Source: an uncultured Chitinophagales bacterium (lineage in GTDB: Bacteria > Bacteroidota > Bacteroidia > Chitinophagales > JAHDHT01). From it: a stretch of 32,314 nucleotides of DNA. Under the pieces are notes generated by a model, which ran no database searches, was not told the origin of the DNA, and saw only the letters and a list, made by a program, of their open reading frames with translations. The stretch lies in assembly GCA_938023075.1 (NCBI GenBank), contig CALHDG010000111.1, forward strand, positions 1-32,314, written 5' to 3'. The first letter of the stretch is position 1. Each line of letters begins with the position of its first letter. The translations under genes were made by a program, and so were the position numbers. Shown here piece after piece: positions 3,534 to 31,149 of this stretch.

Positions 3534-5759
3534 CTACAACAGTTCATTCTTTAACCTACTCATGCTTTCTAAGTTGCTTTTTAAATACAGGGCTTTTTCT
3601 ATAGCTCGCTTTTCTTTTTCCATTAAACGCAAACTCATACTTACTTTTTCAGCATTTTTTGTAGGATTGTATTGCAGGCTAATAATTTCTAATTTATCAT
3701 CTAATATTTCATTGAGCAAACCAGCGAAATTGTCGTGTGCATAATCTTGTACAAAACCCCAATTATCGTATACGGAAACCGGGGTAAATATCTTTTGTAA
3801 CAATCTTTTTATCCGGTGATCTTCTATTATTTCTTTTTTATTATAACTACGGATATCTATTATAATTACTTTACTAACATGCTCTTTTATCCAATTACGC
3901 ATATGATATAAAAATCGATGTGTAATTTCATAGCCATTATTGTCAACCAAACCTGCATCCATAATTTCAATAACTGGTTCAGAAGGCAAAAACACACTGG
4001 GAAAGATCAATGGAAAAGTACCATTCATTCTAACAGCAGTTGACGTTAACAAGCCTTTGGCATTTTGTGCTTTAAATAAACTATTAAACTCTACTGCATC
4101 TAACTCGGCAAATTTATTTTTAAAGGCGTGGGCAGGTCGGGTTAAGTAGGCAATAGGTTGTGCGGCAAACAACATCCGTCTTTTATCATTCATAATTGTT
4201 GAAGCCATAAACATCATCGGGATGGTTGCCTCTGCTTCGTAAGTTTGGTAAGCTGAAATGGGTTTGTTGAGTAAATGATAAGTTTGTTGATTAAATTTTT
4301 GTTCCCAAGAGTAGCCCCTATCTTTAATGTAACTATGCTGCCCTACTTGATGGCGTTGCCAGGGGAAAAATATATCATTTACCACAAAAGTAAATACCAT
4401 GGGATTTAAATAATCAGCCGCTATAGAAATAGCATGAGCTCTGTCATAATAATTTGTACTATCGGCAATTTGATTTTGTAAATACAACTCTCTAAAAAAA
4501 GAGGTACCGTACATACCACCAGAAGCCCCCGTCATTAATACGGTGTGTCTCATAAAATCTCCCTTAGTTAAACTATCTAAAGTTTGTAACACCCTTATAC
4601 TCCAATAGCCGGCACTAATGCCACCGCCGCTGCAATTGGTAATCACCATAGGTAGCTTTTCATCTCCGTGTCCTATACTTGCTTTAGCCTTCCATTTTTC
4701 TAATATCAAAGTGGTCTGTTCAATAGATTGTTCAATGGCAGTTTCATTGGACAGACTGTCTAATTTTTCTAAACTATAGGTGGCTGGTGAGGTATTATAG
4801 TTTAAACCATAGGCTTCGTTTTTGTGTGAAAAAAAATCGTACCCGGTAAAATAATTCGCAATTAACAGAATAATAATAAATGAAGTAACCCGCCAATTAC
4901 CCAGCCAATAATTAAAAGCGCCAGCCACTACAATTATAATGGAAGTTAATAAAAACAAACTGGCAGCCGCAGGAATTTGAAAGGCAGGATAGTCGATAAA
5001 AAACCCCAAAACAACCAATACAGCCAGTGTAACTACTTGCACCAACAGGGCATTTTTATGATGTTGTTGAAACACTCGTAACAATAAACTTTCATTATAA
5101 TGCGAAACATCTCGTACTGGTCGTAATTTTAAACGTTGCGATAAAAAGTACTCCACTCTTTGCATAGGTTCGCGTTCTATTAAGGTGGTCCAGCTTTTAT
5201 CTTTTCTAACCGTGTAGCCTAATTTCTTTTTTTTATTTTCTCTTAAAAAACTTAAAATGCTGGTATTGGTTAAGTTAAAATATAAAGCAGTTAACAGCAT
5301 TACTACTGCAACACCACTTAACATACCGGCAACTCTAAATAAAATAGTATCAAATGCTTTTAACGCATATAAAAACTGAAAACGAATGATGGCAATAGCA
5401 TAAAAAATAACAAAAGTTGCTGGGATGATAAAATTATTTATACTGTAATGCCACAAAGGATATTCTAAAGAAGCCAGGAAAGGAAAACGATAACTATTAA
5501 TAATATAGCTGGTAATATTCCAAGTAACAATAAAACCACCCAAGGCAATACCAATAAATAAAAAACTTAAAAAATTGACCTTGCCCATGTATTCAGGATC
5601 AAGGTATAGATATAAAATTCCATATTGAAAACCAGACATCCCGGTAATTAGTATTACAAAAAACAACCAGGCAAATAATAGGATGTGGTCTTTTTTAAAA
5701 TGAAGTATTAATAATTGAATTGGAAAAGAATAATATATCCAATGTACGGTTTCCTTCAT
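3534..5759 (-). CDS. Patatin-like phospholipase with N-terminal membrane domain
   Basis: A 741-residue protein with two parts. Residues ~1-310 hold about seven or eight hydrophobic helices (for example around 25-45, 60-80, 105-130, 140-160, 235-310), with a basic cytoplasmic loop (KKKKLGYTVRK) between them. The rest is a patatin-type hydrolase domain: an oxyanion loop SGGG at 377-380, the nucleophile elbow GASGG with Ser413, and the catalytic DAG with Asp601 (DAGLVDNNG). Patatins use a Ser-Asp dyad to release fatty acids from lipids, so this enzyme likely acts on membrane lipids from an anchored position. A TATTTTTG box ends 4 bp before the ATG. It lies 89 bp downstream of four methyltransferase genes on the same strand, so co-transcription is possible. 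The family call is firm; the substrate is unknown. Confidence 0.88.
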   Translation of the reverse strand: MKETVHWIYYSFPIQLLILHFKKDHILLFAWLFFVILITGMSGFQYGILYLYLDPEYMGKVNFLSFLFIGIALGGFIVTWNITSYIINSYRFPFLASLEYPLWHYSINNFIIPATFVIFYAIAIIRFQFLYALKAFDTILFRVAGMLSGVAVVMLLTALYFNLTNTSILSFLRENKKKKLGYTVRKDKSWTTLIEREPMQRVEYFLSQRLKLRPVRDVSHYNESLLLRVFQQHHKNALLVQVVTLAVLVVLGFFIDYPAFQIPAAASLFLLTSIIIVVAGAFNYWLGNWRVTSFIIILLIANYFTGYDFFSHKNEAYGLNYNTSPATYSLEKLDSLSNETAIEQSIEQTTLILEKWKAKASIGHGDEKLPMVITNCSGGGISAGYWSIRVLQTLDSLTKGDFMRHTVLMTGASGGMYGTSFFRELYLQNQIADSTNYYDRAHAISIAADYLNPMVFTFVVNDIFFPWQRHQVGQHSYIKDRGYSWEQKFNQQTYHLLNKPISAYQTYEAEATIPMMFMASTIMNDKRRMLFAAQPIAYLTRPAHAFKNKFAELDAVEFNSLFKAQNAKGLLTSTAVRMNGTFPLIFPSVFLPSEPVIEIMDAGLVDNNGYEITHRFLYHMRNWIKEHVSKVIIIDIRSYNKKEIIEDHRIKRLLQKIFTPVSVYDNWGFVQDYAHDNFAGLLNEILDDKLEIISLQYNPTKNAEKVSMSLRLMEKEKRAIEKALYLKSNLESMSRLKNELL

Positions 5760-5763
5760 CTGC

Positions 5764-5771
5764 CAAAAATA
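5764..5771 (-). promoter_or_regulatory. Candidate -7 box abutting the patatin start
   Basis: TATTTTTG fits TAnnTTTG and ends only four bases before the ATG. If real, the transcript would be leaderless or nearly so, and the gene would have its own promoter apart from the methyltransferase run. Confidence 0.3.
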
Positions 5772-5848: not shown

Positions 5849-6661
5849 CTATTTTGTACGATATACCTTTAGTTGATATTTGAAAATATTGTTAGCATAA
5901 AAATAATCCATAATTAGGGCACCCATATAAATATTGAGCTGAGTTTGTTTGTTTCGGTTTTTAACAAATTGCCGGCATACTTGTACTATCCATAATTTTA
6001 AACGGGTAACAAACGTATTCTTCTTTATGATTAAATTAGATAATGCAATACTCTTTACTACAGTTAATTGAGCTTGTTTGGCGTATTGTTCAAATTCATA
6101 TTCGGTATAAACATTAGGCACATTCCAAGCATCAGAAAAGGCGTTGGTTAATGCGTGCTGTTTGTAAGCAGGGTTTAAAAAATCTTCAACAACAATAAGT
6201 TGCCCATTAGGCTTTAAATGTTGCTGAAACACCAGTAAAGTGTCTTCCACATTTTGCGCATGCTTTATCGATTCAATTGCAATAATTAAATCGAAAGTTT
6301 CACTTTCAAGATCATCAAAATTTTGAACCCGAAAGTTACAAGTATTTTGCAATTGCTGCTGTATGGCGTTGGTTTGCGCAGCTTGTATTTCGTGCGGACT
6401 TAAACTGATACCGATTCCGTTACAACCATAGGCTTTACATAATTTGAGTAAAACGTATCCTACACCACAACCAGCATCTAATATAGTGGCAGTTTTTGCA
6501 AGCGAAATATGTTCAATAATCCAATCAGAGACATCAGTATAATTTTTGTAGGTGGCACTATTTTTAAATTGTAGCTTTTTATGAATAGGATAGAGCTTGT
6601 TTTTTTTGCCTTTTTCAAATTTAAATAAAGCGTTGTAAATATGGTCAACTTTTTCGCGCAC
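5849..6661 (-). CDS. Class I SAM-dependent methyltransferase (last of the methyltransferase run)
   Basis: A 270-residue Rossmann-fold methyltransferase. Motif I is LDAGCGVG at 61-68, followed by an acidic-strand region (GIGISLSPHEIQAAQ), a motif around FDLIIAIESIKHA, and GQLIVVEDFL (post II). The ISLSPHEIQ wording resembles the cyclopropane synthase/small-molecule C-methyltransferase branch (Met-11 type), which suggests a lipid, quinone or small-molecule acceptor rather than a nucleic acid. The C-terminal ~70 residues are basic and tyrosine-rich. It starts with GTG two bases after the stop of the preceding methyltransferase, so the two are translationally coupled. No membrane segment is clear. 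Acceptor unknown. Confidence 0.82.
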   Translation of the reverse strand: MREKVDHIYNALFKFEKGKKNKLYPIHKKLQFKNSATYKNYTDVSDWIIEHISLAKTATILDAGCGVGYVLLKLCKAYGCNGIGISLSPHEIQAAQTNAIQQQLQNTCNFRVQNFDDLESETFDLIIAIESIKHAQNVEDTLLVFQQHLKPNGQLIVVEDFLNPAYKQHALTNAFSDAWNVPNVYTEYEFEQYAKQAQLTVVKSIALSNLIIKKNTFVTRLKLWIVQVCRQFVKNRNKQTQLNIYMGALIMDYFYANNIFKYQLKVYRTK

Positions 6662-6663
6662 GC

Positions 6664-7386
6664 TTATGCTTTTGATAAGATGAAAATAAATTCATACGCA
6701 TGTTCTAAAGCAGTCTGCCGTTTCTGTATTTTTTGATAATCTACCTGCCATAATGTACTGTTAAGCGACAGCCACCTCAACCATCTTGTTTTGGGCCATT
6801 GGTCATGGTGGATACGGTTAATTTTAAAACCTGTTTCGGTAAAAACCTCAGACCATTCATTTAAACTTTTTGCCCCCTGATGACCGGCTTTATTAATAAA
6901 GCCCAACTTTTCTTTAACAATTTTCCAGGAAGCTCTTTCTGAATTTCTAACCAAAAAACAAAAATGAGCATGTGGTTTTGCTACACGTAACATTTCTTTT
7001 AACGCCACTTTAAGATGAATAAACCGTTCTAAGGATCCCAAACAAGTCAGGTAATCAAATTGATTATTTTCAAAAGGTAATTGCTCAGCGTTTGCTACTT
7101 TAAGATCAGCTTCAGGCAAAACTTCTTTGGCATAGTTAACAGCAACTTCTGCAATATCAATTCCACTTAGTGTTAAGCCTTCTTTTTGCGCAGCTTTCAA
7201 TAGTTGTCCTGGTCCGCAGGCGATGTCTAAAATGTGATGCTCCTTTTGTACCTGCAATAGTTTCAAATAAATTTCATAGGCCTCTACCGGTCGCAAATAT
7301 TGAAAGGCTCTCCTTTCATAGGTTTTGTTAAACCAATGTTTAATTTGATCTTGCTGTTGATTGGTATTCACGGCATCACCTTGCAT
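6664..7386 (-). CDS. Class I SAM-dependent methyltransferase (Methyltransf_11 type)
   Basis: A 240-residue methyltransferase with motif I DIACGPG (54-60), an acidic GIDIAEVAVNYAKE region, LPFENNQFDYLTCLGSLERF (the PF..FD motif of Methyltransf_11 proteins) and a post-motif strand AHFCFLVRNSE. The C-terminal third has a tryptophan-rich WPKTRWLRWLSLNSTLW stretch that may contact a lipid or membrane. Its ATG lies inside the end of the FkbM gene (11-bp overlap), and its stop is two bases from the next start. Within the family, related proteins methylate quinones, glycans or polyketide-like products; the acceptor cannot be read from sequence. Confidence 0.82.
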   Translation of the reverse strand: MQGDAVNTNQQQDQIKHWFNKTYERRAFQYLRPVEAYEIYLKLLQVQKEHHILDIACGPGQLLKAAQKEGLTLSGIDIAEVAVNYAKEVLPEADLKVANAEQLPFENNQFDYLTCLGSLERFIHLKVALKEMLRVAKPHAHFCFLVRNSERASWKIVKEKLGFINKAGHQGAKSLNEWSEVFTETGFKINRIHHDQWPKTRWLRWLSLNSTLWQVDYQKIQKRQTALEHAYEFIFILSKA

Positions 7387-8107
7387 AAATATCTCCTGAA
7401 AATTTTTTGTCTTTTTGTTCTTCTATATGCTGCACCAATAATTTTGCATTTATCCAGGTTTCCAATTTCAATTGCTGTTGCTCGCCTTTGCTCCAGTTAA
7501 ATTGTTGATAGCCTAATGCTTCTAATCGCGCCAAGCAAAGTAAGGTATTGTTCATATCATAATTAAAAAATTCAAAAGAAATTAAAGGAATTTTTACACT
7601 TAAGCCTTTCAACACGGTTAATTCAAAACCTTCTACATCTAATTTGCAAAAATCAGGCAGTCCATAGCGTTCAATTAAATCATCTAAAGTATATACCCGA
7701 ACAGTTTCTTCTTTATCATATCGAATATTTAATATAGATGGTTTGATGATGTTATCGATCCAACCATCATCAGCTAAAGTACTAACCATTGGAAATAATG
7801 AACTGATTTTAATAGTTAAGTTACCAGCATTGTCTCCAGCTGCCCCATGTATAGCTTTAAAATTTTGATGCTTAGCAAATTGTTTTTGCAATGCCTTATA
7901 AAAAACAGATTGAGGTTCAACGGCAAGTACGCGGGCACCCAAGTCTAAAAAAGTTTGACTTCTACCACCAATGTTTGCTCCAATATCAAAACATAAATCA
8001 CCTGGTTGTATCCATTTTTTATAAAATGTACGGTTCTTTTTTAAAGTAGCTTTCCGAAAATATAAGTACTTAGCAATCCATAAGCCAATTTGTTCTTTAT
8101 ACTTCAT
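7376..8107 (-). CDS. FkbM family methyltransferase
   Basis: A 243-residue protein with the FkbM pattern: DIGANIGG (41-48) as the SAM-binding loop, an acidic VEPQ at 63-66, LDDLIERYGLPDFCKLDVEGFE (the diagnostic D-D-L...K-D-V-E-G stretch, about 141-162), and LISFEFFNYD near residue 180. FkbM enzymes O-methylate sugar or macrolide hydroxyls, and Bacteroidota homologues are commonly found in glycan clusters. ATG at 8105-8107 overlaps the stop of the upstream ICMT-like gene (ATGA), indicating coupling. Length is standard. The specific acceptor is unknown, but a sugar or glycolipid is the likeliest by family precedent. Confidence 0.88.
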   Translation of the reverse strand: MKYKEQIGLWIAKYLYFRKATLKKNRTFYKKWIQPGDLCFDIGANIGGRSQTFLDLGARVLAVEPQSVFYKALQKQFAKHQNFKAIHGAAGDNAGNLTIKISSLFPMVSTLADDGWIDNIIKPSILNIRYDKEETVRVYTLDDLIERYGLPDFCKLDVEGFELTVLKGLSVKIPLISFEFFNYDMNNTLLCLARLEALGYQQFNWSKGEQQQLKLETWINAKLLVQHIEEQKDKKFSGDIYAR

Positions 8108-8673
8108 AAATATCGACGGGTTTGTTGTTGATAGCTTTCGTATTCTAATGGATATTCTTGTAAGAGCAAGTTTTCTTCTAACAACACTTTTGCATTTAAA
8201 TTAATTACAAAAAATACGGAGAGCAACAACAAAAATACATTTACAAAAGCCAAATTAAAACCAAACAGGCTAATAAATAAACCAGTCGCAATTGGGTGTC
8301 GGGAAATAGAAAATATACCAGTTTTCAAAATTGATGAATTCTTTTTATTAAGATGTTTGCGGATGTTAAGCGTTCCCCAAAGGGTAAAAACTCTGCCCAT
8401 TAAAATTAGACTAATTGAAACTATAAGGAGCAAAGTATGATTGCTCAAGCTCAATATTGACATACCAAAAAATGATAGCACCACACTTAGTAAAGGCAAC
8501 ATAAAAGCAAGCAAGGCAGGTACACTCATCATGACCGTAGACAACCGACTCCATTCTTTTTCTTGTACAATTTGATAAGTTGAAACCGGGCTAGGTACGG
8601 CAAGCACCAATAATTCAACCAATATACTTACATAGTAAACCAAAGTGATGATTGTGAAAAATGCTTGTATCAT
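8104..8673 (-). CDS. ICMT/PEMT-like membrane methyltransferase
   Basis: A 189-residue integral membrane protein with about five hydrophobic helices. The C-terminal part has the fingerprint of the isoprenylcysteine carboxyl methyltransferase/phospholipid methyltransferase superfamily: ISRHP (123-127), where the family has R-N/H-P, then two hydrophobic helices, EE (166-167) and Y..EY..Y (174-181). Bacterial homologues methylate small or lipid substrates at the membrane. I chose the ATG at 8671-8673; a TTG at 8683-8685 would add RFI and is less likely. A TAGCTTTG box sits just upstream, so this is probably the first gene of the run. Substrate unknown. Confidence 0.78.
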   Translation of the reverse strand: MIQAFFTIITLVYYVSILVELLVLAVPSPVSTYQIVQEKEWSRLSTVMMSVPALLAFMLPLLSVVLSFFGMSILSLSNHTLLLIVSISLILMGRVFTLWGTLNIRKHLNKKNSSILKTGIFSISRHPIATGLFISLFGFNLAFVNVFLLLLSVFFVINLNAKVLLEENLLLQEYPLEYESYQQQTRRYL

Positions 8674-8682
8674 AATAAAGCG

Positions 8683-8690
8683 CAAAGCTA
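8683..8690 (-). promoter_or_regulatory. Candidate -7 box for the methyltransferase operon
   Basis: TAGCTTTG on the minus strand fits TAnnTTTG and lies nine bases before the chosen ATG at 8671-8673. It also argues against the TTG start, which it overlaps. A TTTG occurs 12 bases further upstream, closer than the usual ~19. Confidence 0.35.
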
Positions 8691-8795: not shown

Positions 8796-9359
8796 ATAGA
8801 GAATCGGAAAATTACATTAACTGAAAAAGAGATACCGGAAAAATGGTATAACATTGTAGCTGATATGCCAAACAAACCTTTGCCTCCCTTGTATCCTGAA
8901 ACCAAAGAACCTATTGGTGCTGATGCTTTGGCTCCTTTATTTCCTATGGATTTAAATAAATGTAAAGAAGCAGGCTCAACTAAAACCATATTATTTACTT
9001 AAGTTTCGGTAGTAAAATAATTGCTGTTCCAATGGGACCTGTTCCATTGTGTCAACAAAAGCCTAGCCACTTTACTACAACAAGTGAACAGGTTCATTTG
9101 GATGATTTTATGCTTTATATTTTGAATTAAGTTAACTTAACTTTATTGAGTACTTCAATTTTCGTATATAATTTATATTCAAGTTTTTATGAAATAAATA
9201 CTACTACCGAAACTTAAGTTATTTAATTTATGTGGTCATTGCAATTTTGACATGAAAGCTTACGAAGATTACTTTGCCGGCAATATTGTTAAGCACGAAT
9301 TATCTGAAGAAGCAATTCATCAATCACTTGCAGAGTTACATACGCCTGAAATAGCATGA
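8796..9359 (+). pseudogene. trpB: TrpB-like (tryptophan synthase beta-type PLP enzyme) pseudogene
   Basis: Two parts of a TrpB2-type protein survive. The N-terminal part, from 8796, reads RKITLTEKEIPEKWYNIVAD..PNKPLPPLYPETKEPI..LAPLFPMDL, which is the characteristic TrpB2 start. The C-terminal part, to the TGA at 9357-9359, reads KTILFNLCGHCNFDMKAYEDYFAG, where the family has FNL(C/S)GHGHFDM. The 300-odd residues between, including the PLP-binding lysine, are absent. The start codon position holds ATA (8796-8798) where ATG is expected before GAGAATCGG, so the gene is probably also start-less. Removing the 223-bp element at 8997-9219 with one TATTT rejoins ILF to NLCGH in frame, showing that the internal deletion preceded the insertion. 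The product is certainly non-functional. Confidence 0.82.
8997..9219. mobile_element. MITE-like element with 18-bp terminal inverted repeats
   Basis: The ends ACTTAAGTTTCGGTAGTA (8997-9014) and TACTACCGAAACTTAAGT (9202-9219) are perfect inverted repeats. The 5-bp TATTT flanks both sides (8992-8996 and 9220-9224), consistent with a target-site duplication. The 223-bp element has no coding capacity beyond short frames, so it is non-autonomous. Its excision plus one TATTT restores the reading frame of the disrupted TrpB-like sequence, independent evidence for the boundaries. No matching transposase or second copy is seen in this window. Confidence 0.85.
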
Positions 9360-12011: not shown

Positions 12012-13169
12012 TTAAAGTGTATCGTTAGAAGGACTGGCATCTAACCTACCAAATGAACCGGAAGCTGGTCTTATATTGGATAAGGCTCCACCTACTTTTC
12101 TGCCCCTCGACAAGCCGGTTGGAAACGTATTTGAATCAATACCTTTAGCAGGCACTCTACTTGTTAATATATTGTTGTATAAAATTCGATACTCGCTCAT
12201 CATTTTTTCTATTGAGAAATCATGAACGTTAATTTGCATAGCTTTATCACTCAGAGTCTGTATGTTAGTTCGGAAGGTTTTTATTGTTTCAACAAGTTGA
12301 TTGGCATCAAAAGTATCTAATACTAAACCACAATTATTTTTAGAAACAAAATCGGCTATTGGAATTTCTTTTGAAGCAATAACAGGTTTACCACTGACCA
12401 AAGCCTCTAATAAAGAATGAGGATATGATTTTACGATGCTTGCATTGCTACATAACAATACACAGCCATGTACTTGCCTTAAAAGTTGTTTTATATCTAC
12501 GGTTTCATTAATAAAAGTAACTTTATCTTGCACATCATATTGAGTAATGAGTTGCTGCATATCTTTCACCAACACATTTCTCCACAAAAAAGTAAGGTGT
12601 ACATTTTCTATTTGTTGAAGGGCAGATAACAGTAAATGAATACCCTTAGAATGAAACTGCTTGCTTTCCCAAGGGGCAGAAGCCATTAACAAATTTAACC
12701 TGCCATCTATAGGTAATTGATGCTTTTCTAATTTTGAGGTATCAATAGCGCTGCGTATTAACCTTACGTTGTGGATTCCCTTTTGTAAAAGTGTATTTTT
12801 ATCCTTTTCGTTTGATACAACAAAGGCACTTATTTTATTTAAGAATCCTTTGGGCAATAAAATACCATTTTCACTAATTCCGGTAGAAACATTATAAACA
12901 ATGGGCTTGCTTAAGGCATACATAAATGGTAAGTACGACAAAGAAGGCGCAAACAATTGATTAATAGCATTTTGTCGCTCCAAAGTTATTATTTTCAAAA
13001 GATTATGAGCACCGTACAACAGTGCTGGATAGCTCGAGTTGGGCTTTGAAAAGGGATATAACGGAGTCACCGATCCCCCAAAATGGTCTTCTAACTTGTA
13101 TATCTCGTTATACAAGGCATCTGTGCCACTTAACTTAGGCTTTGGTGAGGTACATAAAAAGTTGATCAT
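12012..13169 (-). CDS. GT4-type glycosyltransferase (GT-B fold) with unusual C-terminal tail
   Basis: A 385-residue glycosyltransferase, last gene of the glycan operon. The C-terminal half carries the GT-B donor-site pattern: LNLLMASAPWESKQFHSKGI, then SYPHSLLEALVSGKPVIAS, in which E/G/P positions match the GT4 nucleotide-sugar site (the usual E-G-F at its start is replaced by S-Y-P). The N-terminal half is less typical. Its ATG is 35 bp inside the end of the sulfotransferase gene. The last ~45 residues (from about NTFPTGLSRGRKVGG on) are rich in G, S, P and R, unlike the rest, and end directly at repeat copy C; they may be translated repeat DNA replacing the original terminus. It probably adds a sugar to a surface glycan; donor and acceptor are unknown. 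Confidence 0.8.
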   Translation of the reverse strand: MINFLCTSPKPKLSGTDALYNEIYKLEDHFGGSVTPLYPFSKPNSSYPALLYGAHNLLKIITLERQNAINQLFAPSLSYLPFMYALSKPIVYNVSTGISENGILLPKGFLNKISAFVVSNEKDKNTLLQKGIHNVRLIRSAIDTSKLEKHQLPIDGRLNLLMASAPWESKQFHSKGIHLLLSALQQIENVHLTFLWRNVLVKDMQQLITQYDVQDKVTFINETVDIKQLLRQVHGCVLLCSNASIVKSYPHSLLEALVSGKPVIASKEIPIADFVSKNNCGLVLDTFDANQLVETIKTFRTNIQTLSDKAMQINVHDFSIEKMMSEYRILYNNILTSRVPAKGIDSNTFPTGLSRGRKVGGALSNIRPASGSFGRLDASPSNDTL

Positions 13170-13911
13170 CTTCCTGTAGCTTTTTATAATGTCTATGCTG
13201 CAAAATCTGTTCCTTTAATATATTATTATACTTTTTTTTCGAACTTTTGTTCAAAAAAGGAAAGTTATTAAATGTTATTATCTCATCAATATTAAGAAAT
13301 TTAAAAATTGTATTCATCCATTTTTGTGGATTTTTAATCACTTTTTCAAAGTTCAATAGCAAAATTTGTTGATTATCAAACACTTGAAAGAAAGGAAGTA
13401 TTCTTTTGTAATAACACGAAATTTCAAAAGCTTCTTCATTTTCTAAAAAATCTTCAAACCTTAACTGCTTGTTTTTTGCTTGTTCATGATAAAAATGAGA
13501 GATTATCCGCTCAACTCTATTTCTACAAATGTAAATGATTTTTATTTGAGAATTGTAATTAAAAATGTTAAAAACCAATTTTTCTGTTGACCACTCTTTT
13601 GTAGTATAAAACGTTGAAGATTCACCAAAATATTGTTCTCCCTCATAACCTTTTAAAAGATGGTACTCAAAAAAGTGTTGTTTGCTCTTTAATTGAATGC
13701 CCCTTTGTTTAAAATAATGTTTCATTACCTCAAATGGCAAAAAATAGCCGGGTTCTTTTATGGGATTAGTCATAAATATATCAGGATGCTGATTTAAGGC
13801 ATAGTGTAAACTAGTTGTTCCCGCTTTTTGCGCTCCAACTATTAACAGATTGAACTTTTTGTTACGGTAATGCCGTTGTTTTCCTATATTTAAATCAAAC
13901 CATCTTTTCAT
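13135..13911 (-). CDS. PAPS-dependent sulfotransferase family protein
   Basis: A 258-residue sulfotransferase. The 5'-phosphosulfate loop is IVGAQKAGTTSL (residues 24-35), followed by the family segment KEPGYF (52-57) and GESSTFY (96-102). The 3'-phosphate-binding strand-loop is IIYICRNRVERIISHFYH (125-142), with the conserved R and S. Downstream YYKRILPFFQVF and ILLLNFEKVIKNP complete the fold. The reaction is transfer of sulfate from PAPS to a hydroxyl; the gene sits between glycosyltransferases with overlapping ends (17 bp with the upstream gene, 35 bp with the downstream), so a carbohydrate acceptor is likely. Cytoplasmic, with no membrane segment. PAPS synthesis genes are not in this window. 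Confidence 0.87.
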   Translation of the reverse strand: MKRWFDLNIGKQRHYRNKKFNLLIVGAQKAGTTSLHYALNQHPDIFMTNPIKEPGYFLPFEVMKHYFKQRGIQLKSKQHFFEYHLLKGYEGEQYFGESSTFYTTKEWSTEKLVFNIFNYNSQIKIIYICRNRVERIISHFYHEQAKNKQLRFEDFLENEEAFEISCYYKRILPFFQVFDNQQILLLNFEKVIKNPQKWMNTIFKFLNIDEIITFNNFPFLNKSSKKKYNNILKEQILQHRHYKKLQEDDQLFMYLTKA

Positions 13912-15934
13912 TTTTTAAGGTATAATATTTAAGTAAAATGGTTTCGGCTCTTTTTATAAATGTATGTTTATTGTGCACTTCGTAATAATGTGCTAACAAA
14001 TTATTTTTAGAGGAACTTATCGCTTCGACTTGTTCTTTAAATGAAGTATGATTTTGATAATAATGGATTCCTGGAATTAAATGATTAGAACCTTTGGGGC
14101 AGTCGCTTAAAATAGTAGCTCCGCATGCCGAAGCATCAAACAGCCGGTTTGAAACATAGCCTTGTGTTAGCATATCTTCCCAATGATCATTTAAAACAAT
14201 AGCATACTCGTTATACAGTTGATATAATTTTTCATTCGGTACAAACTCAGCTTGAATATATTTTACTGGTATAAATTGCTTCCAATCTTTTCCAATTACA
14301 TCAATTTTGTAGCCCGCGTTTAAGGCAAATTTTACCGACTTCCGAAATACATTTCTACTGTTGCCAACAAATAGTAATTTATTATTTTTAGTAGATGAGG
14401 TTTTTTTAAAAATACTGGGGTCGGTGCATTGATGCAATACACTAATATTTTTTATGGATTGTTGTTGTAGTTTTTGATAATGATAATCAGATGCAACAAA
14501 GCAATGTTGGTATTGATGCATCTCTTGTATAGAAACTTCATCAGGGTGACTGATTAACCACATAAAATTAGTTTGATTAGGCAAGGGTTGATAGGCTCGT
14601 AAACCTCTTAAAGTAATTACCAAATCTATTTGAGAACTGTTGGAGTTAAACCAATTATCGTAGTTGTCAACCTGCACTTGATGTCCAAAATGTTGCAAAG
14701 CTTTTGCTAAGCTCTTAGCAAAATACCAATCGCCAAAGTGTTGTTGCTGTGCTGCTTTCGCCGCTATTTTAATGGAGATATTAAGTTTTGGTGCTAACAA
14801 TAATTGAAGTGTTTTGGCTCTATGATGATACGTATGGCAATTTGTTAACTCGTTATATAAGAAATTTGTAGTATGGTTATAGGCTGTTTCATTTTCATTA
14901 AAATTTTGTAATAGATAAATTAATTCTTTTTCATTTTGATAAGAAGGAATAGGATATTTAAATAGCTTAATGGCATCAGTAGAATTGGTTAACACCATTT
15001 TTTTAGTAGCCATAGCGTTAAAAACCCGGCTATTTAAGGATGCCCATTTTGAAGTAGTATCATTAGCACAATCTAAAATAAACCTTGAATTTTGATACAG
15101 ATTGGGTACCGCTTGGTTGGCAATTGGTCCTTTCACAGCATCGCCAAATTGTTTGGCATCCCAACCTTTACCATAAATTTTTATTGGGTATGATGTATTC
15201 TTGAAAAAGGCTTCAATTGTTCTGCCTTCTTTCCATCTATTGCCTACAAAACAAATTTCATGAGTTGATTTAATTGCTTGGTGAGGTTGAAAACGATTTA
15301 CATTAGCAGCTATCGGAAAAAGATGAACCCGCTTTTTTGTATGATCTTTAATATAATCAACCATCTTATTAGAAGAGCACAAAAACAAATCATATTGCAA
15401 AAAAGAAGGATTGGTTATCCATCGGTCCGGATAATTTCTTATCCAAGCAATAGTAAAAGTGGTTTCAATTTGATGAGGTAAAGCAGTATCCCACAACATA
15501 TTGATAAGTATATCGTAAGTATCAATTTCTGTTAGATTTTCGTAATTAATTAAATGGCAACTCAACTTTGGATGAACTGCCTCTAAGGCTAATTTAAAGT
15601 CGTGCGCAACGTGGGTATCTCCAAATACAGAATCTTCTACATGCACATCACTTACTAAAAAGCCTATTTTTTGTGCCTTATTTAGAGAAAGAGAAAGACC
15701 ACTTAACTGAGTTTTACTGGTCTGCTGAAGACTCAATTGCTCAATAGTTTGTAAGTGTTCTTCCAAAAAATCGATGGATAACTTTTCTTTTTTTCTGAAT
15801 AAGAAAATTTCAATCAATCGGGCAAATGCATTGCCTGCTTTCCACCTGAAAGACTGTTTAATTTTTTGCACATGTCTTTTGGCTTCTTGCGTATGAATTT
15901 TAATCAGTTGATCTTTTATTGCTTTTTTATCCAT
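13895..15934 (-). CDS. Tandem CgeB-like glycosyltransferase (two GT domains)
   Basis: A 679-residue protein with two related GT-B-type halves. The first (about 85-350) has KIGFLVSDVHVEDS, EICFVGNRWKEGRT, YGKGWD and WASLNSRVFNAMATKKMVLT. The second (about 385-665) repeats the order: IKIAAKAAQQQHFGDWYFAK, LLFVGNSRNVFRKS, IGKDWK, and QGYVSNRLFDASACGATILS. These are the nucleotide-sugar site signatures of the CgeB/Glyco_trans_1_2 family. The shared FVGN...GK.W...S.R.F.A.A pattern indicates an internal duplication. Residues 1-85 are basic and helical. The protein probably adds two sugars in turn, or one half has become regulatory. Its ends overlap the neighbouring genes (8 bp and 17 bp). Confidence 0.82.
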   Translation of the reverse strand: MDKKAIKDQLIKIHTQEAKRHVQKIKQSFRWKAGNAFARLIEIFLFRKKEKLSIDFLEEHLQTIEQLSLQQTSKTQLSGLSLSLNKAQKIGFLVSDVHVEDSVFGDTHVAHDFKLALEAVHPKLSCHLINYENLTEIDTYDILINMLWDTALPHQIETTFTIAWIRNYPDRWITNPSFLQYDLFLCSSNKMVDYIKDHTKKRVHLFPIAANVNRFQPHQAIKSTHEICFVGNRWKEGRTIEAFFKNTSYPIKIYGKGWDAKQFGDAVKGPIANQAVPNLYQNSRFILDCANDTTSKWASLNSRVFNAMATKKMVLTNSTDAIKLFKYPIPSYQNEKELIYLLQNFNENETAYNHTTNFLYNELTNCHTYHHRAKTLQLLLAPKLNISIKIAAKAAQQQHFGDWYFAKSLAKALQHFGHQVQVDNYDNWFNSNSSQIDLVITLRGLRAYQPLPNQTNFMWLISHPDEVSIQEMHQYQHCFVASDYHYQKLQQQSIKNISVLHQCTDPSIFKKTSSTKNNKLLFVGNSRNVFRKSVKFALNAGYKIDVIGKDWKQFIPVKYIQAEFVPNEKLYQLYNEYAIVLNDHWEDMLTQGYVSNRLFDASACGATILSDCPKGSNHLIPGIHYYQNHTSFKEQVEAISSSKNNLLAHYYEVHNKHTFIKRAETILLKYYTLKNEKMV

Positions 15935-17267
15935 TCTTTTTTCTGAAAAAATATCTTATTTGAAGACCTACCATCACCACAATTGCAGAATACATAGAAA
16001 CTTCAAAGCGGTTTAAATATATTTTTTGAAAGATTGTTTTGAAAGATAAAAATAAAAGCCGGAATACCAGGATAATATTGGTTTGGGTATGATTATATTT
16101 AGTTAGTTGAAGGTCACCCAAATGTACATAAAACAATTTAAGCCGTTGTACATTAGTAAAATATACTTGTTGGTGTTGAGTGATAAATTCATTTAGATTG
16201 GACAAATCTTTTTTAATTATGAGCTTTACAAAAATGAAATATAAAGACATAAAAGACAAAGCTCGTTGAGCCAAGTTTACTTTTTTAAAGGGTTTATAGC
16301 CGGTAACATTATGCTGATGTTGTATGTATTTTACTAATGGTGTATTAATGTAATGTACCTTATATTGCTTATTTTTCAGGTACGCGCAAATCCAATGATC
16401 ATGGTAAACTTTACCTGTTTGTTGCGGAAAGGGTAAAAGCTTTGATAGTAATTCGGTTTTAAATAACATGGTTGAGCCGGTCGCTACATTATTTACGCAA
16501 AGGGCATGATAATCGTTAATATGATTAGAACGTTTAACCCAAAAAGTAGCCTGTAATTGCTTGAGATTTTCATCTACTATTTCGAGATCACTGTAAACTA
16601 AATCAGCTTGGTGTTTTTTTAGCTGTTCAACTTGTTTTTCTAATTTATTTAAATGCCAAACATCATCTTGATCGCTAAAAGCGACATAACTATATCCTTC
16701 GCCAATTTTATTCAGCAACAATTCTATGTTATTATAAAAGCCAATATTTTTGCTGTTTTGAAAAAAGTGAATATTGCTAAACTGTTGAATGTATTGTTTA
16801 ATTTGATGAGCCCTTTTTTTATCCGATCCATCATCTTGTATAATAATTTCTATAGGATGTTGCTTCGCATAACCTTGCTGTAAAATGGAATTGACCTGCT
16901 GTTTAAACAAGTTAATGTTGGGTTGATAAGTTGGCAAAACAATTGCTATGGAGTTGGGTAGTTGCGCTTCTATTTTTTGAAGATTGATTTTAACCTTTGC
17001 TTTACCTACTTTATATTCAACATTTCCTGAAGATGCCACAAACCGAAGATGAAAAGCAATTTCATCATATTGTTCATTTTGTTTTAAATAACCTGTAATA
17101 GCGAACCCTCTTTTTTGAGTTTTGCCGCTAATTTTATCATAGTACGGTATCGCTTGGCATGCTCCAACTATTTTTTTACCGGCAACTAATTGAACCTGCT
17201 CAAATTTAACCTGACTATAACCACAACACAACAGCAATTTTTCACTGCTGTATAAAAACGTTGGCAT
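15927..17267 (-). CDS. Family 2 glycosyltransferase with N-terminal extra domain
   Basis: The GT-A catalytic domain begins near residue 105 (numbered from the ATG at 17265-17267). It shows IAIVLPTYQPN, IIIQDDGSDKK with D145/D146, FLQN-type FFQNSKNIGFYNNIE, and the metal-binding FSDQDDVW (D199-D202). HDHWICAYL lies further on. This pattern resembles rhamnosyl- and related O-antigen transferases. About 100 residues before it form a strand-rich domain of unknown role. Hydrophobic segments near the C-terminus (FMSLYFIFVKLII and MYSAIVVMVGLQI) suggest membrane association. A TTG at 17301-17303 would add 12 residues; the ATG is preferred. It is the first gene of the four-gene glycan operon. Confidence 0.86.
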   Translation of the reverse strand: MPTFLYSSEKLLLCCGYSQVKFEQVQLVAGKKIVGACQAIPYYDKISGKTQKRGFAITGYLKQNEQYDEIAFHLRFVASSGNVEYKVGKAKVKINLQKIEAQLPNSIAIVLPTYQPNINLFKQQVNSILQQGYAKQHPIEIIIQDDGSDKKRAHQIKQYIQQFSNIHFFQNSKNIGFYNNIELLLNKIGEGYSYVAFSDQDDVWHLNKLEKQVEQLKKHQADLVYSDLEIVDENLKQLQATFWVKRSNHINDYHALCVNNVATGSTMLFKTELLSKLLPFPQQTGKVYHDHWICAYLKNKQYKVHYINTPLVKYIQHQHNVTGYKPFKKVNLAQRALSFMSLYFIFVKLIIKKDLSNLNEFITQHQQVYFTNVQRLKLFYVHLGDLQLTKYNHTQTNIILVFRLLFLSFKTIFQKIYLNRFEVSMYSAIVVMVGLQIRYFFRKKNG

Positions 17268-17375
17268 CGCAAGGTATAGTTGAACTGAATTTTGGATTGT
17301 CAAATTAAATTAATTAAGATAATTGGATTTAGCTTAGTAGTTAGGAATAAAAAAAAGTAACGTTAACATGCTGAC

Positions 17376-19871: not shown

Positions 19872-21008
19872 CTAAAGTAGCAATTTCGTCATACTTTCCC
19901 ATAATAAATTGGCGGTTCGTTGCCATGTAAATTGACTTCGTTGTATTTTGCCCTTTTCAATTAATTGTTTTCGTAAAGCAGGTTGTTGCTCTATTTGAAA
20001 CATCGCTTTGTAAATATCTTCGGTTTCCGTTGGGTCAACCAACAAAGCGGCGTCGCCGGCTACTTCGGGCATAGAAGAAACATTGGACGTAATAACCGGC
20101 GTTTCGGCATACATTGCCTCTAAAATAGGTAAGCCAAAACCTTCGAACAACGAAGTATAACATAAAGCTAAGGCTGATGCAGTCAATTTTTCTACTTCGA
20201 TAATGGGTAAATGACCGGTAAAAATTACGGCATCGCGGTGTTGCATATCGTTTAAAATGGCTTTTAAATGACTGTTTTGCCAAGCCATTCTACCGGCAAC
20301 TACTAATTTGGTATGGCTTTGTGTTTGTTGTTTTAACATCTCAAAGGCTTGCAAAATACGGGCTAAGTTTTTGCGTGGATGTACCGCACTAATAAAAATA
20401 AAATAAGGGCAGCCTTGTGTGTATTGTTGAAGTACCACCGCTTTTTGAGTTGGATTTAAAGGTTTACATGAGGGGTTAGCACCATTATATACTACATCAA
20501 TTTTATCAGCAGCTATGTTGTATTTTTCTATAATATCTTTTTTAGAAAATTGAGAAACCGTAGCTATTCGTTCAACCTTTTTTGCATACTTCGGACTATA
20601 ATATTGATAGAATTTCCGGTTTAAAAAGGGTACAAATTGAGGATAATGTTCAAACGCTATATCGTGAAAAACACTTAAGGTGGGTACTTGTGTTTTTAAA
20701 GAAGCAAAGCCATCGGGCGACAAAAACATATCAGGTTTTATTTTATTTAAAGCCTTGGGTACGGCATGTTCAAACCAATAATACCACAATAGCGGATGCC
20801 TTGCCGGTGGCGAAAGTATAATGGGTGTTATATTGTTGGCGAATAAAAAGGTATCGTAGTTTGAACGATCAAACAAAAAATAGAATTGATGTTGAGGATA
20901 ATTTTGAGTTATGCGCTGTAAGGTTTCTTTCGTAAACCTGCCCATACCTTCTAATTTATCTTCAATTAAAAAGCGGGTATTGACTGCTATTTTTAAACCT
21001 TGTGTCAT
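19872..21008 (-). CDS. GT4-type glycosyltransferase (mannosyltransferase-like)
   Basis: A 378-residue GT-B glycosyltransferase. The acceptor half has IAVNTRFLIEDKLEGMGRFT near the start (a GIGR-like loop) and FLSPDGFASL. The donor half has YFIFISAVHPRKNLARILQAF, KLVVAGRMAWQ, and the EX7E retaining motif from E289 to E297 in EGFGLPILE, with TPVITSNVSSMPEVAGDAA after it. This is the common GT4 arrangement for transferring a sugar from a nucleotide donor to a lipid- or polymer-linked acceptor. It stands apart from the 12-17 kb operon but may serve the same envelope glycan. A TATATTTG promoter box lies upstream. Confidence 0.9.
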   Translation of the reverse strand: MTQGLKIAVNTRFLIEDKLEGMGRFTKETLQRITQNYPQHQFYFLFDRSNYDTFLFANNITPIILSPPARHPLLWYYWFEHAVPKALNKIKPDMFLSPDGFASLKTQVPTLSVFHDIAFEHYPQFVPFLNRKFYQYYSPKYAKKVERIATVSQFSKKDIIEKYNIAADKIDVVYNGANPSCKPLNPTQKAVVLQQYTQGCPYFIFISAVHPRKNLARILQAFEMLKQQTQSHTKLVVAGRMAWQNSHLKAILNDMQHRDAVIFTGHLPIIEVEKLTASALALCYTSLFEGFGLPILEAMYAETPVITSNVSSMPEVAGDAALLVDPTETEDIYKAMFQIEQQPALRKQLIEKGKIQRSQFTWQRTANLLWESMTKLLL

Positions 21009-28743: not shown

Positions 28744-31149
28744 ATGAATACGTATTTGGAAAACTTTTTGTTTTTAAACCTATTATTATGCTGGTTATGT
28801 TATGGACATGTTGCCACAGCACAGGAGCAAATTAGCACTGCTTCGGCTGCACCACAAATAACTTGTCCGGAAATTAAGACGATTAATATTTGTGCACCCG
28901 TTGGCTCGCCGGCACAGCTGTCGTTCGACAATTTTAATCCAACAGATGATAATACCCCAACAGCAGAAATTGAATTTGAAGTACAGGAAACCTTAAACAT
29001 TTTAAACGATGTAACCGTAATGACCCATCAGTATAGTTTTACCGATAAAGATGGAAACAGCAGTTACTGCGAAATGGTTTACAACATTACCAACCGTTTT
29101 ATGCAAGCTCCGGTATTTCCCAATCAATATCGCATTTGTCAAGATGATTTTTTTAGAGGACTGAAATTAGGCAAAGCGAATTATATGATTTATAACGATC
29201 ATAACGGACAACCGGGCAACCTGCTTGGAAAATGCGATCAAGCCGGTTTATTGTGTGCTGCCGACAATTTAAATATTAATGCTGCCGAAGGCGGTCTTTC
29301 CAGGCTTTGGCTTACCGAATTTATTAGCTTCCCCGATGCTTCAATTTGTGAAAGTGAAGCCACGCGTTTAACTATTGAAGTGATTGAAAAACCAACCGCA
29401 AAACTAACCACTAATCTGCATCAAGCTGAAGCCGGTACGGTTTTAAATTTAATGAATTTTGTAGAAGAAAACACCAACGGCTTTTGGAATGGAAAAGGCG
29501 TTTTTAGTGCCACCACTGTTGATGGTTCGCTAGCTTGGTTTTTTACCGCTACCGGCGTAAGTACTGCTAAACTATATTATACCGTTAGCAATTTAACTTG
29601 TTCGCAAAGTTATTGGTTGTTAATAGAGCCTAAAGCAAACGAAACATGCCATTTGGGAGAAGCTTGTACCATTCAGTTTGATGAAACCAAAACAATAGAT
29701 TCAGAAGGTCTAACGATTCATTTTAGTAGCATTAGTGATAGCCGCTGCCCGGCAGAGGCAGTTTGTTTTTGGGAAGGAATAGCCACTGCTTCGGTTGAAA
29801 TCTCCAGTTCAAAAGAATCGGGTACCATAACTTTAAATACCTTTGGTGCCTGTGCTCCTCTAGAGCCTGATTTGTTTAATGGACCTTGCGAAGGGGAACA
29901 AAAAGACACCTTAGGCTACCGGTTTACCTTAGTTTCTATTGATCCTTATCCTGGTGGTTTACCAGCTGATGAAAACGAATATTCTATTAGCCTAATTGTT
30001 GAAAAAAGTGCTACAGCTGTTAGTACAACTGAGTTAAGCCAAGCACAAAACACCTTTGCAATTAATTTATTTAAAGAAGCCAATGCGATAGATGCCGAAG
30101 ATGAAAACGTGATTATTTCTCCTTTAAGTGTAGCGATTGCTTTGGCAATGGTTAGCAATGGAGCAAATGGAGCAACGCTAACCGAATTTCAACAAGTAAT
30201 GCATTTAAATGATTATGAACTTGCAAATATTAATGCAGGCTATTTGGATTATATGCAAAAGCTGCAAAATTTAGATGAGCAGTTAAGCCTTGAAATTGCC
30301 AATGCTGTTTTTTATGATGATGGTGGAATTGCTGTTAATCCTGCATTTATTGAAACGGTACAACAATATTATGATGCTCAAATTGAAGTGAAAGATTTTA
30401 AGGATGAAGCCACCGTTGAGGATATTAACAATTGGGTAAAAACCAACACCGCAAACAAAATTGAAAAGATCATTGACCAAATTAACCCGGCTGAAATTAT
30501 GTTTCTGTTAAATGCCATTTACTTTAAAGCCAATTGGTCAAAACCATTTAATAAAGCTTTAACCCTTGAAGGTAATTTTACTTTGGATGATGGCAATTCA
30601 GAAACTGTTGAATTTATGGGCAATAGAGATCGTTGGGAAATTTTTACAAATGCCAACTTAAATGCCGTTAATATTCCGCTTGGTGATTCTATTTATAATA
30701 TGCTGTTCATTCAACCGGCTAATGAGAACACCTCTTTAAAATCGTTTGCCAGTAATTTTAGTTTGTCTGATTTTTCGGAAATTACTACCGGTTTAAGTAA
30801 CCGTGATTATATTGTTTCGATTCCAAAATTTGAATTGTCTTATGAAAATCAAATGAATGATGACTTAATGAACTTAGGATTGACTCTACCTTTTAATGAA
30901 GCGGCTGCTGATTTTAGCAACTTAGGTACTGCCGGTGGAAACTTATATATTTCACGGGTAGTGCATAAAACCTATTTAAAAATTGATGAAGATGGTGCGA
31001 CTGCCGCTGCGGTAACCGGTGTTGGAGTTGGGGTAACTTCTGTACCTCCTTCCATTCGATTTAATCGTCCTTTTATATGTTTAATATGGGAGAAAGCAGA
31101 TAATTCTATTTTATTTATGGCTAAGATTATGAATCCAAATGCAGAGTAA
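28744..31149 (+). CDS. Secreted serpin (serine-protease inhibitor) with N-terminal surface modules
   Basis: An 801-residue protein. An N-terminal signal segment (~1-28, ending HVATAQ) is followed by Ig/HYR-like modules (~35-300), then a module with DSRCPAEAVCFWEGIA (~331-347). The C-terminal ~370 residues (from ~432) form a complete serpin: VIISPLSVAIALAMVSNGA, FLLNAIYFKANWSKPF, and the signature RPFICLIWEKADNSILFMAK. The reactive loop follows E749-D-G-A-T-A-A-A, the small-residue hinge required for inhibitory serpins, and counting from P15 Gly751 puts the scissile bond near Thr765-Ser766. It is likely a surface or secreted trap for a neutral serine or cysteine protease. Start ATG lies just after repeat copy F. 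A terminator follows the gene. Confidence 0.9.
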   Translation: MNTYLENFLFLNLLLCWLCYGHVATAQEQISTASAAPQITCPEIKTINICAPVGSPAQLSFDNFNPTDDNTPTAEIEFEVQETLNILNDVTVMTHQYSFTDKDGNSSYCEMVYNITNRFMQAPVFPNQYRICQDDFFRGLKLGKANYMIYNDHNGQPGNLLGKCDQAGLLCAADNLNINAAEGGLSRLWLTEFISFPDASICESEATRLTIEVIEKPTAKLTTNLHQAEAGTVLNLMNFVEENTNGFWNGKGVFSATTVDGSLAWFFTATGVSTAKLYYTVSNLTCSQSYWLLIEPKANETCHLGEACTIQFDETKTIDSEGLTIHFSSISDSRCPAEAVCFWEGIATASVEISSSKESGTITLNTFGACAPLEPDLFNGPCEGEQKDTLGYRFTLVSIDPYPGGLPADENEYSISLIVEKSATAVSTTELSQAQNTFAINLFKEANAIDAEDENVIISPLSVAIALAMVSNGANGATLTEFQQVMHLNDYELANINAGYLDYMQKLQNLDEQLSLEIANAVFYDDGGIAVNPAFIETVQQYYDAQIEVKDFKDEATVEDINNWVKTNTANKIEKIIDQINPAEIMFLLNAIYFKANWSKPFNKALTLEGNFTLDDGNSETVEFMGNRDRWEIFTNANLNAVNIPLGDSIYNMLFIQPANENTSLKSFASNFSLSDFSEITTGLSNRDYIVSIPKFELSYENQMNDDLMNLGLTLPFNEAAADFSNLGTAGGNLYISRVVHKTYLKIDEDGATAAAVTGVGVGVTSVPPSIRFNRPFICLIWEKADNSILFMAKIMNPNAE

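Follow-up and report, generated by a model that had tools for sequence, protein, structure and literature searches.

The question raised by this locus is what four dissimilar methyltransferases encoded in one overlapping run might act upon. The locus lies in a stretch of 32,314 nucleotides (the window) that is the entire contig CALHDG010000111.1 (C111) of an uncultured Chitinophagales bacterium, the genome of which comprises 6.1 Mb in 288 contigs and is placed by its relatives in the Bacteroidota, within the order that also includes Saprospiraceae genomes. Read along the minus strand, the run encodes an integral membrane methyltransferase resembling isoprenylcysteine carboxyl methyltransferase (ICMT) and PEMT (8104–8673), an FkbM-family methyltransferase (7376–8107), a class I UbiE-like methyltransferase referred to as MT3 (6664–7386) and a class I CMAS/UbiG-like methyltransferase with a GTG start referred to as MT4 (5849–6661). 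The answer favored here, to which a probability of roughly two in three is assigned, is that these enzymes would constitute the methylation module of a dispersed PTPS-IV pathway, the other members of which are a BchC-like dehydrogenase, a CDP-alcohol phosphotransferase and enzymes of riboflavin type. The link of the methyltransferase set to the PTPS-IV pathway is well supported by comparison of gene neighborhoods, and the product is probably a membrane-linked pterin or aminopyrimidine.

The layout of the run was as an earlier note on the window had described it. Thus, the ICMT-like and FkbM genes overlapped by 4 bp (ATGA) and the FkbM and MT3 genes by 11 bp, while a gap of 2 bp separated MT3 from MT4 and one of 89 bp separated MT4 from a gene on the same strand that encodes a large membrane protein, in which a patatin domain is weakly matched. 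The ORF of the ICMT-like gene, as called mechanically, opens at TTG 8685, with an ATG at 8673. The view that none of the four is a recognizable duplicate of another was also confirmed, as the likeness between MT3 and MT4 was limited to the class I S-adenosylmethionine (SAM)-binding core (about 29% over about 96 aa for MT3 copies from related clusters against MT4). Matches above family cut-offs were noted for the ICMT-like protein with PF04191 (28.9 bits, cut-off 25) and for the FkbM protein with both TIGR01444 (93.5 against 37.7) and PF05050 (53.8 against 22.7), and MT3 and MT4 were assigned to Methyltransf_11 and Methyltransf_23, respectively. Scores fell short of more specific assignments for MT3 (62.2 against a curated UbiE/MenG cut-off of 158.35) and for the ICMT-like protein (32.2 against 160 for the isoprenylcysteine carboxyl methyltransferase equivalog NF040696). 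The ICMT/PEMT family consists of integral membrane proteins, which the window protein fits by composition, and its C-terminal SRxPI...EE...Y motifs were present. SAM-binding and ortholog-specific motifs were retained in the window methyltransferases.

The proposed association was traced through the surroundings of MT3, the module's most specific marker. Including the genome under study, MT3 was found in 2 of 248 genomes of the order (E≤1e-15) and in 5 of 395 genomes of the class (E≤1e-30), while a scan of genome contigs with an MT3 alignment identified five loci, all in metagenome-assembled genomes (MAGs) of Saprospiraceae and one of them G191 (the same contig as L097, counted once). These scans were made with MT3 only and took no account of neighboring genes. 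Six distinct further loci carried MT3 at 52–66% identity (L087, L092, L096, L098, L099 and L100), of which five come from Saprospiraceae MAGs and the sixth from a genome outside the order. A CDP-alcohol phosphotransferase, a flippase of the Polysacc_synt type and, beside or near MT3, a copy of MT4 were present in all six, a BchC-like dehydrogenase in five (L100 ends inside MT3), a RibD-type reductase in four, a PTPS-IV-like protein in three (L092, L098 and L099) and RibA in one (L092). The ICMT gene was directly upstream of MT3 in four (L087, L096, L098 and L099); it was not found in 18 kb of L092 and was not visible in L100. Sulfotransferases were noted in L092, L096 and L099, and L099 also held an FkbM gene (38%) and therefore all four window methyltransferase families in one cluster. 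In G191, the ICMT, MT3 and MT4 genes occurred in the same order as in the window and also overlapped, the end of ICMT and the start of MT3 sharing 4 bp, while MT3 and MT4 were found together in G564, a genome of another order. Independent loci thus repeat the order ICMT-MT3-MT4, which places the arrangement of the run beyond chance. Uniqueness of the gene order to this genome, which the earlier note had named as grounds for giving up its interpretation, was seen only in the placement of FkbM, all four genes in this order, with FkbM between ICMT and MT3, being noted here alone. A search of plasmids with MT3 returned 150 records, none of which covered 80% of the query. Type III polyketide synthase clusters with ICMT and UbiE-like genes, which were considered as a possible parallel, were set aside, no polyketide synthase being recognized by eye in the loci compared.

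Candidate partners were also present in the genome to which the window belongs. On contig C77 (6526–7910), a BchC-like dehydrogenase (50%) adjoined a PTPS-IV protein that was 66% identical to the G564 copy and bore the motif FGPAQ, while C98 carried a CDP-alcohol phosphotransferase (PF01066) that was 40% identical to the G191 copy and the only match in the genome. The dehydrogenase was found in 5 of the 248 genomes of the order, including both with MT3. The probability of finding it by chance in the genome of the window alone is 4/247, or 1.6%, and this is an independent figure. Intact ORFs were noted for all four methyltransferases as well as for these three candidate partners. On C77, the dehydrogenase-PTPS-IV pair is adjoined by a FolB-HPPK fusion and a short-chain dehydrogenase (L102 4777–6243), both encoded on the other strand; comparison with further cluster loci showed no relatives of either. 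On C98, two adjacent ORFs next to the CDP-alcohol phosphotransferase (L106 8450–9367) by eye resemble one split sulfotransferase; they gave no Pfam match and were not used as evidence.

Results from other phyla placed the dehydrogenase and PTPS-IV in a wider context. The PTPS-like protein matched one solved structure, that of SCO6650 from Streptomyces coelicolor (3d7j, E 5e-33), and in seven of eight aligned PTPS sequences the CxxxHGH of QueD was replaced by FGPAQxxHGA, the exception being a Haloarcula sequence with neither motif. The L092 copy scored 47.1 against a cut-off of 89.25 for the QueD (PTPS-I) equivalog. According to PMC5445326, FGPAQ marks the PTPS-IV subfamily, the neighborhoods of which contain PF00925 and PF01872. 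Of 24 plasmid records that matched the PTPS-like protein, which on plasmids is annotated as 6-carboxytetrahydropterin synthase, six clusters were examined (from Actinomycetota, Alpha- and Gammaproteobacteria and one haloarchaeon). The dehydrogenase was directly ahead of PTPS in all six and a GT4 glycosyltransferase directly after the pair in five; annotated genes further included CDP-alcohol phosphotransferase (4/6), RibD (4/6), RibA (2/6) and a creatininase-family protein (2/6), and FkbM was noted once (Palleronia). A compact cluster is also carried by plasmid pOB3b1 of Methylosinus trichosporium OB3b. On the Haloarcula sinaiiensis plasmid (L110 9001–9378), PTPS kept its position in the cluster without FGPAQ. 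These findings suggest that QueD-type annotation of FGPAQ proteins is wrong.

The known PTPS-IV neighborhood, as seen around SCO6650 and in the plasmid clusters, thus resembles the MT3 loci in having a dehydrogenase next to PTPS-IV with CDP-alcohol phosphotransferase, GT4, RibD, RibA and a methyltransferase nearby, but differs in the methyltransferases themselves. A distinct core methyltransferase was common to the six plasmid clusters and G237 (all seven of the other PTPS-containing clusters compared; tblastn, E≤1e-3), whereas at the same threshold it was found in none of the six MT3 loci, which carry ICMT-MT3-MT4 instead (with FkbM as well in L099), nor in the window or the C77 and C98 stretches, these being the parts of the genome under study that were covered. 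Comparison was made at the DNA level by tblastn because the ORF filter, which may drop genes shadowed by longer frames in GC-rich loci, had lost core methyltransferases. The filter had also been applied to the neighborhoods of patatin and of FkbM and ICMT relatives described below. Neither the core methyltransferase nor an MT3-type set was present in L118 and L120. On this pattern, which was noticed after looking and in few loci, ICMT-MT3-MT4 may have taken the place of the core methyltransferase, and in this lineage the set would seem to substitute for the single core enzyme of other PTPS-IV clusters. A further difference is that the genome of the window has the parts on separate contigs.

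Trees and marker searches gave results that varied among the four families. The window MT4 and six cluster copies formed a clade with 100/100 support to the exclusion of eight non-cluster homologues, and the window ICMT-like protein grouped at 100/100 with four cluster copies, L052 and L056 being placed among them on a long branch. As a marker, ICMT detected relatives in 20 of 59 genomes, one of which was the genome under study, and all the others were weak (E≥1e-11); FkbM used alone, in a single-sequence scan of genome contigs, detected none. Relatives of FkbM and ICMT within the order were mostly weak and had varied neighborhoods. The nearest relatives of the window FkbM were in L119 (43%), L099 (38%) and L120 (32%), all within clusters that contained the dehydrogenase with RibA or RibD. 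The order in G237 was FkbM (43%)-RibA-RibD-dehydrogenase-PTPS-glycosyltransferase-methyltransferase and that in G017 was FkbM (32%)-sulfotransferase-dehydrogenase-RibA. Other FkbM relatives in the order neighbored relatives of the glycosyltransferase and sulfotransferase genes of the window (12012–17303 and 19872–21008), which lie within about 4–12 kb of the run and would allow the four methyltransferases to decorate a surface polysaccharide made by these genes. Decoration of this kind is considered distinctly unlikely, since a DsbD gene and a decayed TrpB-like gene separate the run from that group, and the company in which orthologues of MT3 and MT4 recur is that of PTPS-IV clusters and not of the window glycosyltransferases, in keeping with the MT4 cluster clade.

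Several observations weigh against assignment of the run to a PTPS-IV pathway. Instead of forming one cluster, the genes are scattered over three contigs (C111 for the methyltransferases, C77 for the dehydrogenase and PTPS-IV, C98 for the CDP-alcohol enzyme), and the pathway link is one of guilt by association. The probability of chance co-occurrence in both MT3 genomes (3.3e-4) is partly circular, as the G191 cluster itself suggested the partner genes. Neither a dedicated RibD reductase nor a dedicated RibA was found in the genome under study, the only matches being a 351-aa RibD of housekeeping type (30%) and a 418-aa protein of bifunctional type (46%), and their absence speaks against a complete pathway; G191 likewise lacked a dedicated RibA. 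Among the MT3 loci, neither L087, a contig of 15.6 kb, nor the part of L096 that was covered yielded a PTPS-IV gene. Three distant MT3-like genes (33–36%; G395, G425 and G259) occurred without such a cluster. Finally, the window FkbM grouped with L099, L119 and L120 at only 80/80. The missing RibD and RibA and the dispersal over three contigs would also fit an orphaned remnant of a decayed pathway, in which the methyltransferases have a different substrate or none. This reading is judged unlikely given that the methyltransferases, dehydrogenase, PTPS-IV and CDP-alcohol enzyme are intact, that SAM-binding and ortholog-specific motifs persist, and that G191 is without a dedicated RibA as well.

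If the run does belong to a dispersed PTPS-IV pathway, the families involved suggest the kind of product. The chemistry of RibA, RibD and PTPS points to a GTP-derived pyrimidine or pterin, and anchoring on a membrane lipid or phospho-alcohol, together with export, is suggested by the CDP-alcohol phosphotransferase, the GT4 enzyme, the membrane ICMT and the flippase. Thus, GTP would be opened by GTP cyclohydrolase II (RibA) and the ribosylaminopyrimidine reduced by a RibD-type reductase, then remodeled by PTPS-IV and the dehydrogenase; in the present genome the RibA and RibD steps would be supplied by housekeeping riboflavin enzymes. Coupling of this product to a lipid or a phospho-alcohol would fall to the CDP-alcohol phosphotransferase, and GT4 would add a sugar. 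As a guess at the role of each methyltransferase, the small headgroup might be the target of MT3 and MT4 and a hydroxyl, possibly one of the sugar, that of FkbM, and ICMT, embedded in the membrane, might act on an intermediate held there ahead of export by the flippase. A different outcome, in which the pathway serves an F420-like cofactor and the methyltransferases act on a soluble product of deazaflavin type instead of a lipid, takes its support from PMC5041015, where PTPS-IV is assigned a part in archaeal F420 synthesis with reference to unpublished work; it is thought quite improbable, as the recurrent CDP-alcohol phosphotransferase, glycosyltransferase, flippase and membrane ICMT are better suited to a membrane-linked product. 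The earlier suggestion of a tailoring set for a lipid or glycolipid made elsewhere was upheld in its first part, relatives of all four methyltransferases clustering with CDP-alcohol phosphotransferase, glycosyltransferase, flippase and pterin- or riboflavin-type enzymes, and several of these partners being present on C77 and C98. That the product would be a lipid or glycolipid is plausible from the CDP-alcohol phosphotransferase, membrane ICMT, glycosyltransferase and flippase.

The MT3 model (predicted local distance difference test score, pLDDT, 81) had the fold of small-molecule methyltransferases, and the solved folds closest to the MT4 model (pLDDT 89) were those of geranyl diphosphate C-methyltransferase, CmaA, SpnF, AtmM and MitM. 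Although MT4 has the same fold as geranyl diphosphate C-methyltransferase, mycolic acid cyclopropane synthases and RebM/AtmM/MitM (Z 21.7–25.3, root-mean-square deviation 2.6–4.7 Å over 228–258 residues for the matches from these families named here), the identities were 12–21%, many rows were tied and a common fold gives no substrate. The naming of a substrate for MT3 or MT4 from structure matches was rejected because of the many tied rows. Toxoflavin-type pathways likewise employ GTP cyclohydrolase II together with enzymes of RibD type, and neither PTPS-IV nor a CDP-alcohol enzyme is known from them. The toxoflavin methyltransferase ToxA (8rdl, E 1.3e-5) was a weak match of MT4 but not its best one.

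The large membrane protein encoded after the run (3534–5759, minus strand) gave different results. Its patatin domain scored 26 bits against the PF01734 gathering score of 27.7 (E 1.2e-5), and the protein is at most a distant relative of patatin-like phospholipases. Orthologues were detected across the order, in 42 of the 59 genomes searched, the genome under study among them, and the surroundings were compared in 20 of the 41 others. No relatives of ICMT, MT3 or MT4 were noted in these 20 neighborhoods (E≤1e-3), which contained one distant FkbM (24%). The gene ahead of patatin was a member of one family of about 480 aa without a Pfam match in 10 of the 20, including that of G001, the sole relative from the same family, and the next gene beyond it belonged to a phosphoribosyltransferase family in eight. 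A plasmid search with the patatin protein gave two records of low identity. Because patatin is conserved without the methyltransferase set, its adjacency to the run is local to this genome, and the gene looks like a bystander placed there incidentally. A single lipid-remodeling operon of run and patatin, as the earlier note implied, would fit the common strand and the 89-bp gap, but with another family ahead of patatin in half of the neighborhoods and the methyltransferase set in none, it is very improbable.

No description of the product of the cluster or of this methyltransferase set was found in the literature searched, most subscription journals being outside the search; among the papers listed, PTPS-IV proteins were treated only in PMC5445326 and PMC5041015. 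The PTPS-IV neighborhood is already known, and the present findings extend the pathway in Bacteroidota by a flippase and by methyltransferases of four families, one of which is membrane-embedded. The locus thereby offers a genomic handle on a pathway that, by the searches made, is known as a gene neighborhood only, narrows the type of product to be sought and names genes the loss of which should shift product mass by methyl groups. It is possible, if doubtful, that the product represents an undescribed class of membrane-linked molecule in several phyla and haloarchaea, with a GTP-derived headgroup made by RibA, RibD and PTPS-IV and attached by CDP-alcohol phosphotransferase, and that a Bacteroidota lineage has swapped the single methyltransferase for up to four unrelated ones.

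Among other features of the window, matches to the promoter pattern TTTG-N16-22-TAnnTTTG numbered three against 4.45 expected, with none immediately ahead of the run. TAnnTTTG itself occurred 63 times against 60 expected, and its occurrences ahead of the ICMT gene (8683–8690) and ahead of patatin (5764–5771) are uninformative because the count is close to expectation. The decayed gene between the run and DsbD (8796–9356, plus strand) consists of N- and C-terminal pieces of a TrpB-like protein (PRK12391) with the middle missing. In the region 12012–17303, glycosyltransferase and sulfotransferase genes overlap or abut to form a block, and the C-terminal half of an 801-aa ORF at 28744–31149 contains a complete serpin domain (PF00079, E 2.8e-97).

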